From a virus: DNA of 40,992 nucleotides. Below, piece after piece: positions 3,921-7,475 of the stretch. The position numbers were made by a program, and so were the translations under genes. The stretch is taken from the IMG/VR virus record IMGVR_UViG_3300046836_000562, positions 1 to 40,992 of that record; one strand, given 5' to 3'. The notes beneath the pieces are model-generated. The model saw only the letters and a list, made by a program, of their open reading frames with translations, did not search any database and was not told the origin of the DNA. Numbering within the stretch: the first letter of the stretch is position 1; every line of letters starts with the position of its first letter.

Positions 3921-4628
3921 GTGGACCCTATCGACAATTCACGACCGCGCGCTATCCCTGTCCTGGGATGGCTCCGCGCATGGTGGTCACGGATCATTGG
4001 CGGCCTCGCGTTCGCCGTCGTGGCCGGCGTCACCGGCCGCATCAGCTACGTCCACATCCAGGCGCTGAGCGTGGCTCTGCACCAGTCCCCGGGAGTCGCC
4101 CGGATCATGCCGTTCGGCGTCGACGGGCTCATCGTCGTCGGCTCCGTCGCGCTGCTGAACCCGCCCGACAGCCAGCCGTGGCTCGGCTGGATCTGCGTGG
4201 CACCCGGCTCGGTCGTGAGCCTGTTCGCGAACGTCATGTCGTCCATCGCGGACGGCTGGCTGTCGGCCGCCTGGGCCGGGGTGGCATCCATGTCGTTCAT
4301 CGCGGCCACCTACACGCTTGAACGGTGGATGAAAGCCCAGTTCAGCGTACGTAGCCACGGTGGTTTTCCCGCCGCGGCGGAGACTGATGCGGAGGCTCCC
4401 TCCGCAGGCGGCGCCGACGGCGATCCTGAGCCGGCCCAGCCAACGACGATGGAGGCGCTGCGGCTGCTGCTGGGCACCGCCACGCAGCGGGACCTGGCGT
4501 TCGCGCTGAGGGTCGACCGGAACCGGATCCTCGCGTGGGAACGCCAGCTGGATGCGGCGGCCAGCGAGGTGGATGAGCCGCCCGCGCCGGATCCGACCGT
4601 GAGCGGACTGAACGGGAGCGCGCCGTGA
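3921..4628 (+). CDS. DUF2637 transmembrane protein (Spd-like)
   Basis: A 235-aa membrane protein of the DUF2637 family. The signature SYVHIQALSVALHQSPG, then MPFGVDGLIVVGSVALL is clear. Four hydrophobic segments lie within residues about 20-135, followed by a hydrophilic linker and a C-terminal HTH-like segment (ATQRDLAFALRVDRNRILAW). In Streptomyces plasmids and AICEs this family sits beside the FtsK/TraB translocase and is thought to help intramycelial plasmid spread. GTG start at 3921 with GGAAGG upstream. Its TGA overlaps the GTG of the next gene. The combined membrane and HTH parts suggest a link between membrane and DNA, which is inference. Confidence 0.85.
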   Translation: MDPIDNSRPRAIPVLGWLRAWWSRIIGGLAFAVVAGVTGRISYVHIQALSVALHQSPGVARIMPFGVDGLIVVGSVALLNPPDSQPWLGWICVAPGSVVSLFANVMSSIADGWLSAAWAGVASMSFIAATYTLERWMKAQFSVRSHGGFPAAAETDAEAPSAGGADGDPEPAQPTTMEALRLLLGTATQRDLAFALRVDRNRILAWERQLDAAASEVDEPPAPDPTVSGLNGSAP

Positions 4629-4819
4629 GCCGCCGCCGGATGAAGGTGCTCGCCGTGGCCACCCTCGGCCTGCTGTGGCTGTGCACGCTGCACGTCAGCG
4701 TTCCGCTGGCCGGCCAGGTGCCCGCCGGGGAATTCGTGGCGTGCGCTGAGGCTGTGGTCCTGGCGGTGATCGGCTACGGGATCGCCGGGTCCCTCGGATG
4801 GCAGGTGAGGGCAGGATGA
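4625..4819 (+). CDS. Small membrane protein of the transfer operon
   Basis: A 64-aa protein with two predicted membrane helices (LAVATLGLLWLCTLHVSVPL and ACAEAVVLAVIGYGIAGSLG). GTG start overlapping the DUF2637 stop, and TGA overlapping the ATG of the translocase gene, so it is coupled on both sides. Its position and size fit the small Spd proteins of Streptomyces transfer regions, which are thought to form a membrane complex with the translocase. No catalytic motif. Confidence 0.7.
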   Translation: MSRRRMKVLAVATLGLLWLCTLHVSVPLAGQVPAGEFVACAEAVVLAVIGYGIAGSLGWQVRAG

Positions 4820-6894
4820 CCGCGGGCCCGCACTCGCCGGGCGCCGCTGATGATGACGCCGGGCGGGACGAGGACGACGACGACGTTGCTGAAGGCCAGG
4901 TCGTCCCATTCCCCGGGGTGATCGTCCCCGCGGCCCCCGCGAAGCCGCAGCGCGGCCAGCCGGGCGAGTGGAAGCCCGTCATCCCCCAGCACCTGCGCAC
5001 CCGGGAGGGCATCGCCAGGTCCGCCGGCTGGCACTACCGGCGGGCACGGCACCACTCGCTCTACCACGGGGTGCGCATCCCTGGCCGGATCGCGCTCACC
5101 CTCGGCTGGGCAGCCGTCGGGCTGACCCGCATCACCTTCGCGCAACTGTCGTGGTGGTGGGTCAGCGAGCAGACCTACCTGCGGCACTCGGCTGCCGCTG
5201 ACGGGGACGCCGCGAAGTGGCTCAGCCTCAATAAGCACGTCCGGGAAGTCCGGCTCGTCCGCGGCCTGATCCTGCTCGGCGAGGGCACTGCGGTCACCGT
5301 CGGCGCCATCGTGCTGACCTGGCACTCGCCGTACGCGCCGCTGCTGTGGATCCCGGTCGGCGTCGTCGCCGTGCCGGTGCTGGCGTGGATCGGCCGGCCG
5401 GACGACAAGCCCATCGTGACCAGCTCCGTCGTCCCGGTCGCCGTCGAGCGGCTCACCATCGAGCTGATCATCCGCGCGCTCGGCGCGCTCGGCATCGCCG
5501 AGATGAACAAGGCCCTGCGCGAGGACGCCGCCAAGGCGATCACCACGATTGACGGGCCGATGCGGGACGGCCCCGGGTGGCTGTGGCGCGGTGACCTGCC
5601 GCACGGCGTGACGGCCGGGCAGGTCAGCGAGAAGCGCGAGGAACTGTCATCCGGCCTGCGGCGCCCGCTCGGCACCGTGTGGCCCGAGACGGACCACAAG
5701 CGCCACGCCGGGGCGCTCAGCCTGTACGTCGCCGACGAGGACATGACCACGGCCGAGCAGCCGCCCTGGCCGCTGGCGAAGCGCGGCAAGGCCGACATGT
5801 TCACGGGCACCGTGTTCGCGTTCGACCCGCGCGGCCGGCCGGTCACCGTCACCCTGATGTTCGTCTCGATCATCATCGGCAGCATCCCCCGGATGGGCAA
5901 GACGTTCCTGCTGCGGCTACTGCTGCTGATCGCGGCCCTTGACGTGCGCTCTGAGCTGCACATGTACGACCTGAAGGGCACCGGGGACCTGGCCCCGCTC
6001 CGGTCGGTGGCGCACCGGTACCGGGCTGGGGACGACCCCGACGACATCGAGTACATGGTGGCCGACTTCCGCGCGCTGCAGGCCGAGATGCGCCGGCGGA
6101 CCAAGGTCATCCGCCGCGTCGCCGACGAGGAGCAGGAGCGCTGCCCGGAGAACAAGGTCACCCCGGAGCTGGCCGCCGACAAGAGCCTGCGACTGCATCC
6201 CATCGTCGCCGCGATCGACGAGTGCCAGATCGCCTTCGAGCACCCCGCGTACGGCGAGGAGATGGAGTCCATCTGCACCGACCTGACGAAGCGCGGCCCG
6301 GCGCTCGGGATGCTGCTCATCCTCGCCACGCAGCGGCCCGACGCCAAGTCGATCCCGACCGGGATCAGCGCTAACGCCGTGCTGCGGATGTGCCTGAAGG
6401 TAATGGGGCAGCTCGAAAACGACATGGTCCTGGGCACCTCGCAATACCGGAGCGGAATCCGCTCGACGCAGTTCAGCTTCGATGAGAAGGGCGTGATGTA
6501 TTTCGCCGGGGAGGGAATGCGGCCAAAGATCGTGCGGAGCCAGTACATTGACGGCCCGGCTGCCAAGGTGATCGCCGCGCGGGCGCGGGTAATGCGGCAG
6601 CAGGCCGGGCGGCTGACCGGGTACGCGGCCGATGAGGATTCCGATCAGGAGAAGCGCTCGTTCCTCGATGACGTCCTGGCGGTATTCGGCGATGACCGGA
6701 ACCTGTGGTCCGAGACGATCGCCGAGCGGCTCAGCGGGGCGGTTCCCTCGGCCTACGCGGACATCACCCCGGCCGCCGTCGCCAGCCAGCTCCGCGCGCT
6801 AGGGGTGGCCGTCAAGAAGGTGCGGGAGCCGGGCAGGGAGCCGCGCGCCGGGTGCGAGCGGGCGGGCGTTGCCGAGGCTGCCGGGCATGGGTGA
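4816..6894 (+). CDS. FtsK/SpoIIIE (TraB-type) DNA translocase
   Basis: A 692-aa hexameric-translocase-type ATPase. Order: acidic N-terminus (about 1-30), two or three membrane helices (about 95-200), then the FtsK motor domain with Walker A GSIPRMGKT (residues 355-363) and Walker B IVAAIDE (463-469), an ATQRPD motif further on, and a C-terminal winged-helix-like segment (about 615-670). Streptomyces TraB proteins of this class move double-stranded DNA between cells and recognise short repeats (clt) with the C-terminal winged helix. The ATG at 4816 overlaps the previous TGA and has GAGGGCAGG upstream. The neighbours (GntR, DUF2637, small membrane protein, zinc proteins) are the standard transfer set, arguing for conjugation rather than cell division or packaging. 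Confidence 0.9.
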   Translation: MTAGPHSPGAADDDAGRDEDDDDVAEGQVVPFPGVIVPAAPAKPQRGQPGEWKPVIPQHLRTREGIARSAGWHYRRARHHSLYHGVRIPGRIALTLGWAAVGLTRITFAQLSWWWVSEQTYLRHSAAADGDAAKWLSLNKHVREVRLVRGLILLGEGTAVTVGAIVLTWHSPYAPLLWIPVGVVAVPVLAWIGRPDDKPIVTSSVVPVAVERLTIELIIRALGALGIAEMNKALREDAAKAITTIDGPMRDGPGWLWRGDLPHGVTAGQVSEKREELSSGLRRPLGTVWPETDHKRHAGALSLYVADEDMTTAEQPPWPLAKRGKADMFTGTVFAFDPRGRPVTVTLMFVSIIIGSIPRMGKTFLLRLLLLIAALDVRSELHMYDLKGTGDLAPLRSVAHRYRAGDDPDDIEYMVADFRALQAEMRRRTKVIRRVADEEQERCPENKVTPELAADKSLRLHPIVAAIDECQIAFEHPAYGEEMESICTDLTKRGPALGMLLILATQRPDAKSIPTGISANAVLRMCLKVMGQLENDMVLGTSQYRSGIRSTQFSFDEKGVMYFAGEGMRPKIVRSQYIDGPAAKVIAARARVMRQQAGRLTGYAADEDSDQEKRSFLDDVLAVFGDDRNLWSETIAERLSGAVPSAYADITPAAVASQLRALGVAVKKVREPGREPRAGCERAGVAEAAGHG

Positions 6895-6930
6895 CGCAGC
6901 CCCATGGGGCGGGGGGATGACCAGGCCGGC

Positions 6931-7060
6931 GTTCCGGGCGGGAACAGCGGAACATCGCAGGCCACAGGCCACAGGCGCTGTTCCGGGCGTTCCGCCTGGC
7001 GGCGTAACCGCAGGTCGGCGCGTGTTCCGCTACCGGAACACTTCAAGGGGGGACCGGAAC
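6931..7060. repeat. Cluster of GTTCCG/CGGAAC repeats (candidate clt/transfer site)
   Basis: In 130 bases directly after the translocase gene there are seven exact GTTCCG/CGGAAC hexamers at 6931, 6948, 6980, 6989, 7024, 7034 and 7055 plus a one-mismatch copy (GGGAAC) at 6940. GTGTTCCG (7022-7029) and CGGAACAC (7034-7041) form a perfect 8-bp inverted repeat with a 4-base loop. A short tandem GCCACAG repeat occupies 6961-6975. TraB-type translocases bind short repeated DNA motifs near their own gene, so this is a good candidate recognition locus. A replication origin or an operator for the next gene are alternatives. Confidence 0.6.
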
Positions 7061-7061
7061 G

Positions 7062-7475
7062 GTGAGCTGGCGGCCGCAACTCAGCGTCGTCTGCAACCGG
7101 TGCGGGAAGCCGCGCGGCCTGACCCACGTCTGCGTCAGCAACTCCCGGCGCAAGCAGAGCGTCAAGCCGAGGCTGACGTACGGGAAGTGCCCGGAGTGCC
7201 GCAAGCCCTACGGGGCCGTCCCGCTTGCCCACGTGTGCGCGCCCAAGTCCGACTTCAAGCGCCGCAAGGCGGAGCACGAGAAGCGGGAGCGCGAGAAGGC
7301 CAGGAAAGCCAAGCCGAAGCACGACTACACCGAATGCTCCGATGCCGAGTGCAAAAGGTCGCTGTGCGTCGCCCATAAGGCCGGGATTGCCCTTGGCGAC
7401 GAGCGCGGATATCAGCGCGGATGGCAGCAGGGATATGCGCGCGGCTCGGCCGAATGCCCGCGAGATCATAAGTAA
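7062..7475 (+). CDS. Zinc-ribbon protein of the transfer module
   Basis: A 137-aa basic protein. It has two similar Cys units: CNRCGKPRGLTHVC near the N-terminus and CPECRKPYGAVPLAHVC around residues 45-61, each a CxxC plus HxC pattern expected to bind zinc. They are followed by a Lys/Arg-rich helix, a third Cys group (CSDAECKRSLC) and a Gly/Arg tail (DERGYQRGWQQGYARG). GTG start with AAGGGGG about 10 bases upstream. Proteins of this layout commonly follow FtsK-type genes in actinomycete elements. It may bind DNA; the exact role is not known. Confidence 0.75.
   Translation: MSWRPQLSVVCNRCGKPRGLTHVCVSNSRRKQSVKPRLTYGKCPECRKPYGAVPLAHVCAPKSDFKRRKAEHEKREREKARKAKPKHDYTECSDAECKRSLCVAHKAGIALGDERGYQRGWQQGYARGSAECPRDHK

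Follow-up and report, generated by a model that had tools for sequence, protein, structure and literature searches.

What is a dense cluster of short repeats doing directly behind a DNA translocase gene in a viral genome? The question is raised by IMG/VR virus record IMGVR_UViG_3300046836_000562, the whole of which (40,992 nt, classed as linear and possibly a fragment; hereafter the window) was analyzed. At positions 6931–7060, between a gene for a TraB/FtsK-type translocase and the next open reading frame (ORF), it contains seven copies of the hexamer GTTCCG or its reverse complement CGGAAC, plus one near copy. A preliminary description, made from the sequence, had put this cluster forward as a candidate clt, the type of locus recognized by the TraB translocases of Streptomyces plasmids and, in the strict sense, required in cis for transfer. 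From sequence comparisons it is very probably a cis-acting recognition site of this kind, serving the phage-encoded translocase: the corresponding repeats of relatives vary in step with one residue, 684, of the translocase's predicted winged helix, and this makes the translocase the most likely binder of the repeats, which would be its clt. The plasmid setting of the proposal did not hold, the element being a phage genome.

The exact copies begin at 6931, 6980, 6989, and 7024 on the forward strand and at 6948, 7034, and 7055 on the reverse; the near copy is GGGAAC, at 6940–6945. An 8-bp inverted pair, GTGTTCCG (7022–7029) and CGGAACAC (7034–7041), lies within a 20-bp near-palindrome, GTGTTCCGCTACCGGAACAC (7022–7041; no strand assigned). 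All of these were found where they had first been described. The cluster, likewise unstranded, falls entirely within a noncoding spacer of 167 bases (6895–7061) between the translocase stop and the next ORF, beginning 36 bases beyond the end of the translocase gene; its last hexamer abuts the GTG start codon of that ORF (7062). A check on hexamer enrichment, set beforehand, came out in favor of local enrichment: the rest of the window has the hexamer about as often as chance predicts (31 copies in the whole window, against 25.0 ± 4.9 in shuffles), and in 200 first-order simulations of the window it never exceeded three copies per 130 bases. However, some hexamer, mostly a GC-rich one, reached at least seven copies per 130 bases in 45% of the simulations. 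The raw count is therefore unremarkable, and a composition-corrected score is the fairer measure; for the cluster this is ~1e-10, the highest among all 180-base intervals of the 41-kb record.

If the cluster serves the translocase, relatives might be expected to have one at the same place. The translocase protein matched nothing in annotated phage records, so that the comparison rests on IMG/VR viral contigs, plasmids, and genomes: about 170 relatives in all, of which the first collection comprised 108 distinct loci including the window. (A seven-way alignment, A1, was too diverse for scanning the collection, and alignment A3 was used.) Relatives with the same kind of translocase do have a repeat cluster at the same location. 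A cluster score above 6 was found within 200 bases behind the translocase stop in 89% of the 108 loci, as against 7% of 2,428 control gene ends, these being the other gene ends of the same loci (p = 2e-56, relatedness of the loci being ignored). Four loci that at first glance have no cluster (L102, L103, L107, and L005) have one directly behind one extra small ORF, and in L064 repeat copies reappear ~450 bases downstream.

This constancy of position bears on the reading of the repeats as operators, bound by a regulator of the translocase or of the downstream gene. The tra genes of Streptomyces are repressor-controlled, and both the inverted pairs and the copy abutting the next start codon would suit an operator; but in every clade the cluster is 3′ of the translocase gene while the gene downstream varies, no promoter-like site was found in a scan for the sigma-70 type, and changes in motif follow the winged helix of the translocase itself. 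Operators are accordingly a highly improbable explanation.

The sequence of the repeats, by contrast with their position, differs from locus to locus: CTAGCGG in most Streptomyces, CTAGAGG in many Pseudonocardiaceae, CTAGGA in Micromonospora, and GGTAGCG (GTAGCG), GTAACG, GGTCAGG, or TGTCGCGG elsewhere. In the window's own clade it is the third and fourth repeat bases that vary. The GTTCCG core is common to the window and two relatives, L090 (64% identical) and L091 (62%), while the nearest relative (L089, 73% identical) has the motif GTGTCGCG. Sites were compared by offset, because a MAFFT alignment of the four nearest spacers left some homologous sites out of register; at 16, 27, 62, and 72 bases after the stop, TGTCGCG in L089 stands in place of TGTTCCG in L091. 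The palindrome is perfect in L091 (GTGTTCCGCTAGCGGAACAC) and altered in both arms in L089 (GTGTCGCGCTAGCGCGACAC). A different motif at the same offsets in a 73% relative is what a new recognition specificity predicts, as had been suggested for the window, whose motif also appears to differ from that of plasmid pSVH1.

The translocase itself (698 aa; 4798–6894, forward strand) matches the FtsK/SpoIIIE-like PHROG 1358 (3e-25) and falls 1 bit below the cut-off for Pfam FtsK_SpoIIIE (E = 7e-5). In its AlphaFold model (mean pLDDT 88), long N-terminal helices at residues 69–199 precede a predicted FtsK/SpoIIIE motor domain at about residues 215–616, which is superimposable on the Pseudomonas aeruginosa and Escherichia coli FtsK motors (Z = 31.1 and 30.6; root-mean-square deviation 3.4–3.6 over 349–350 residues). 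The C-terminal part, residues 622–696 (6661–6885, forward strand), is modeled as a winged helix, with pLDDT above 90 over most of its length, helices at 622–630, 638–648, 658–667, and 688–696, and strands at 635–637, 673–675, and 683–687. A search of PDB sequences with a profile of this domain gave weak matches only (EspR, E = 0.016); the FtsK gamma domain does not appear in the list of structure matches to the model, which says little. In FtsK, that gamma domain is likewise a winged helix on an FtsK-type motor, and reads a short DNA word, the FtsK orienting polar sequence (KOPS); KOPS are spread over the chromosome, however, whereas the words of the window are packed into one spacer.

Evidence beyond the argument of the preliminary description comes from covariation. 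Repeat base 5 was compared with each column of the winged helix, using a tree built from the motor domain alone. The column that tracks the motif is residue 684, which lies on the wing's second strand (in the window, codon 6847–6849). Loci with R or K at this position have C at base 5 in 60 of 60 cases; M, I, T, or N goes mostly with A, and G or Q mostly with G. Mutual information between the two is 1.03 of a possible 1.16 bits, with 0.53 for the next column. Among 12 independent contrasts between residue classes on the motor-domain tree, the base agrees in ten, does not differ in two, and opposes in none (p = 0.002). Kept unchanged, the rule was next tried on 70 distinct loci not used before, drawn from about 750 further genomes: of 61 cases, 58 conform to it, where 39.1 would be expected under independence and the best of 10,000 permutations reached 49. 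Predictions other than C were right in 12 of 12 cases, and the three misses are all K or R with A. Bases 1, 3, 4, and 6 give weaker signals with single residues, not corrected for phylogeny, which may serve as leads.

Could such a pattern arise without any binding, by co-inheritance of winged helix and spacer as one linked block? The sites are within 250 bases of the residue 684 codon, and swaps of such blocks do occur. Linkage predicts, however, that all winged-helix columns should behave alike, and column 684 stands alone, with a net score of 9.3; equally linked columns follow the motif far less well (median near 0, or 2 when supervised), which disfavors mere co-inheritance. Neither does linkage explain the concerted change of dispersed copies on both arms. 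This alternative too is very unlikely. The swaps themselves look as if recognition domain and site were exchanged as one cassette: L022 and L045 have motors 95% identical, winged helices only 55% identical, and repeats changed on both arms. This pair belongs to a Saccharopolyspora comparison (L022/L040 against L033/L045) in which near-identical motors have differing winged helices and repeats, as was also noted between L004 and L069. Across the relatives, the motor and its proposed docking repeats change together by a rule that can be read in part.

A further possibility is that the repeats are iterons of a replication origin, bound by a replication initiator. Loci of the type of actinomycete integrative and conjugative elements (AICEs) have, 2–5.5 kb downstream of the translocase stop, separate and stronger clusters of variable short repeats. 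Where checked, most of these lie at the 3′ end of a replication gene (DUF3631 or DUF3987); they are probably origin iterons. Examples lie ~2277 (L028), 2718 (L046), 4107 (L030), 3264 (L073), 4800 (L027), and 2517 (L026) bases after the stop, and motifs seen in such clusters include GGTTACCG, TGACGCA, CGTTGACA, GGTAGCGG, and CCGTCCCA. Both kinds of cluster have a CTGAYCWG element in common, present in 36 of 44 of the separate ones. In the spacers behind the translocase, a second element, CGCAGGTCAG, lies between the repeats in most phage and plasmid relatives (noted in L089–L109, L003, L005, L007, and L008) and hardly varies while the repeats do. CAGGTCAG is present in 16 of 27 phage and plasmid spacers, against 1.2 expected, and in 19 of 27 within 420 bases; in the genome loci, CTGATCAG or CTGACCTG takes this place in half of the cases (control, 7%). 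This second element is the one that recurs in the separate clusters by the AICE replication genes. The window has CGCAGGTCGG at 7009–7018 (forward strand), one mismatch from CGCAGGTCAG. Against iterons, it is the translocase gene, not one for replication, that precedes the window's cluster, and neither a Rep nor a prim-pol gene was recognized in the window; within AICEs, moreover, the two clusters differ in motif, and it is the one behind the translocase that tracks the wing residue. The repeats are thus most improbable as iterons.

Several points nonetheless weigh against recognition of the repeats by the translocase. Similar-looking clusters also occur behind AICE replication genes, so that short repeats are not by themselves a mark of translocases. 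The window has A at residue 684, and A, S, and P lie outside the rule, which was fitted on other clades and so makes no prediction for the motif of the window. When the tree is built from the winged-helix domain, three supported contrasts are left (2.8 agree, 0 oppose), which is not significant. The C-terminal domain matches generic winged helices only, with a best Z of 6.6. Finally, published work on pSVH1 TraB credits specificity to helix alpha3 and not to the wing (Vogelmann 2011, as described in PMC3583192 and PMC4170104), while in the window's family covariation is mainly at the wing.

Known systems otherwise offer close parallels. In the Streptomyces theta plasmid pWTY27, clt starts at the 3′ end of traA and extends into the ~160 bases that follow; it contains inverted repeats besides four 7-bp direct repeats (TGACACC), and was footprinted by the FtsK-like TraA (PMC3583192). 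As in the window, a gene for an FtsK-like translocase has short repeats at its 3′ end; the differences are that pWTY27 is a plasmid and not a phage, that its motif is another, and that its binding and transfer have been demonstrated where the window is known from sequence. In pSVH1, the C-terminal winged helix of TraB, an FtsK-like motor that works as a hexamer, recognizes repeated 8-bp motifs, the TraB recognition sequences (TRS) (PMC3583192, PMC4170104). The clt loci of pJV1 and pIJ101 are also clusters of short repeats with imperfect inverted repeats near transfer functions (PMC3583192); their motifs, CCGCACA[CG][CG] and GC/AAAC, are unlike the window's, and that of pIJ101 is near korB. That variable short repeats at the 3′ end of a tra gene are bound by TraB-type motors is accordingly known (pWTY27; PMC3583192). 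For AICEs, no clt had been described for pSAM2 as of 2022, with TraB specificity and clt location considered open (PMC9513070). The literature searched contained no report of this locus in phages, nor of a residue-to-base rule. What would be new, judging from the comparisons above, are the locus in phages, candidate clt sequences for AICEs, and a testable specificity code.

That the record, from a virus of actinomycete-type bacteria, is a phage and not a Streptomyces plasmid follows from its genes for terminase, portal, maturation protease, capsid (major head), head-tail, tail (tape measure), and endolysin proteins; it also encodes a recombination exonuclease. AICEs are defined by integrase, Rep, and Tra genes without virion genes, while the window has virion genes and a domain search of the record found no Phage_integrase match. 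Virion genes and transfer-type genes, the combination that defines phage-plasmids, are both present, although no plasmid replication or partition genes were recognized in the window (possibly a fragment). It is, then, a phage with an AICE/plasmid-type transfer pair. Similar combinations occur among relatives: two circular plasmid records (W01 and W02) have portal and terminase genes, and among 24 records searched, counting the window's own, a portal gene is present in 13, a terminase gene in 17, and a tyrosine integrase gene in 17. Many carriers of this translocase are therefore phages or phage-plasmids. (In the related phage records G002, G010, G015, and G018, a single in-frame stop codon, either TAG or TGA, splits the terminase match.) The genome relatives L009–L088 have the window's translocase family and, where checked, rep genes of the AICE type (DUF3631, DUF3987, or prim-pol; for AICEs, PMC3218068, PMC9513070) and integrase genes. 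Phages living as conjugative plasmids are already known, for example pZL12 (cited in PMC3583192), and conjugating plasmid-phages have been described (PMC4170104); such plasmid-phages are not known to share the window's translocase or its repeats. Two chromosomal loci (L131 and L133), from genomes of the same family as the Planomonospora locus L010, have a winged helix very like the window's, with P at residue 684, and GTGTTACG/GTGTAGAG-type sites at the corresponding place. They may be prophages, and may hint at the group to which the host belongs.

Upstream of the translocase is a DUF2637-like gene (3921–4628, forward strand; Pfam DUF2637 at 1.3e-4, just below cut-off); by annotation, DUF2637 genes are also upstream of the translocase in plasmids L004, L005, and L007. 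It weakly matches a PHROG labeled excisionase, a label probably carried over from neighborhood and not reflecting function. The ORF 3′ of the cluster (7062–7475, forward strand) would encode a cysteine-rich protein of 137 aa; it has no match in Pfam or PHROG searches, and a related ORF is found in L002 and L089. Other candidates considered for the cluster region include an RNA element (no Rfam match in the window; the spacer folds no better than shuffles, z = −0.96), an intrinsic terminator or a sigma-70 promoter (none found), and integrase arm sites (no Phage_integrase domain in the record, and none recognized beside the cluster).

If the repeats are bound by the translocase, the C-terminal winged helix of each subunit would bind one short repeat, and the several direct and inverted copies would bring subunits together on double-stranded DNA as a hexamer. 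The motor could then pump the phage genome, in a circular or a prophage/plasmid state, through the membrane into a neighboring cell or hyphal compartment. TraB does pump double-stranded DNA of Streptomyces plasmids into neighboring cells (PMC3583192, PMC4170104, PMC12857230), and by this analogy DNA transfer is rather likely to be the purpose of the motor and cluster. Alternatively, the pair may move or segregate a plasmid-state prophage along the hypha.

How TraB recognizes clt is established for only a few Streptomyces plasmids. AICEs are responsible for much of the gene flow among actinomycetes. The locus shared by phages, plasmids, and AICEs supplies many candidate clt sequences, and since the residue-to-base rule also fits loci fetched later, specificity becomes testable by single-residue swaps. 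The pairing of translocase and repeats in the window points to a functional conjugation module in some actinomycete phages. It may further be proposed, tentatively, that one widespread group among the temperate phages of actinomycetes also spreads from cell to cell by TraB-type conjugation of double-stranded DNA, each phage with its own translocase/repeat pair. The specificity of the pair would evolve through a readable code between wing residues and repeat bases (684 with base 5; possibly 676 with base 1 and 674 with base 4), by which phages, plasmids, and AICEs sharing a host would be kept from pumping one another's DNA.
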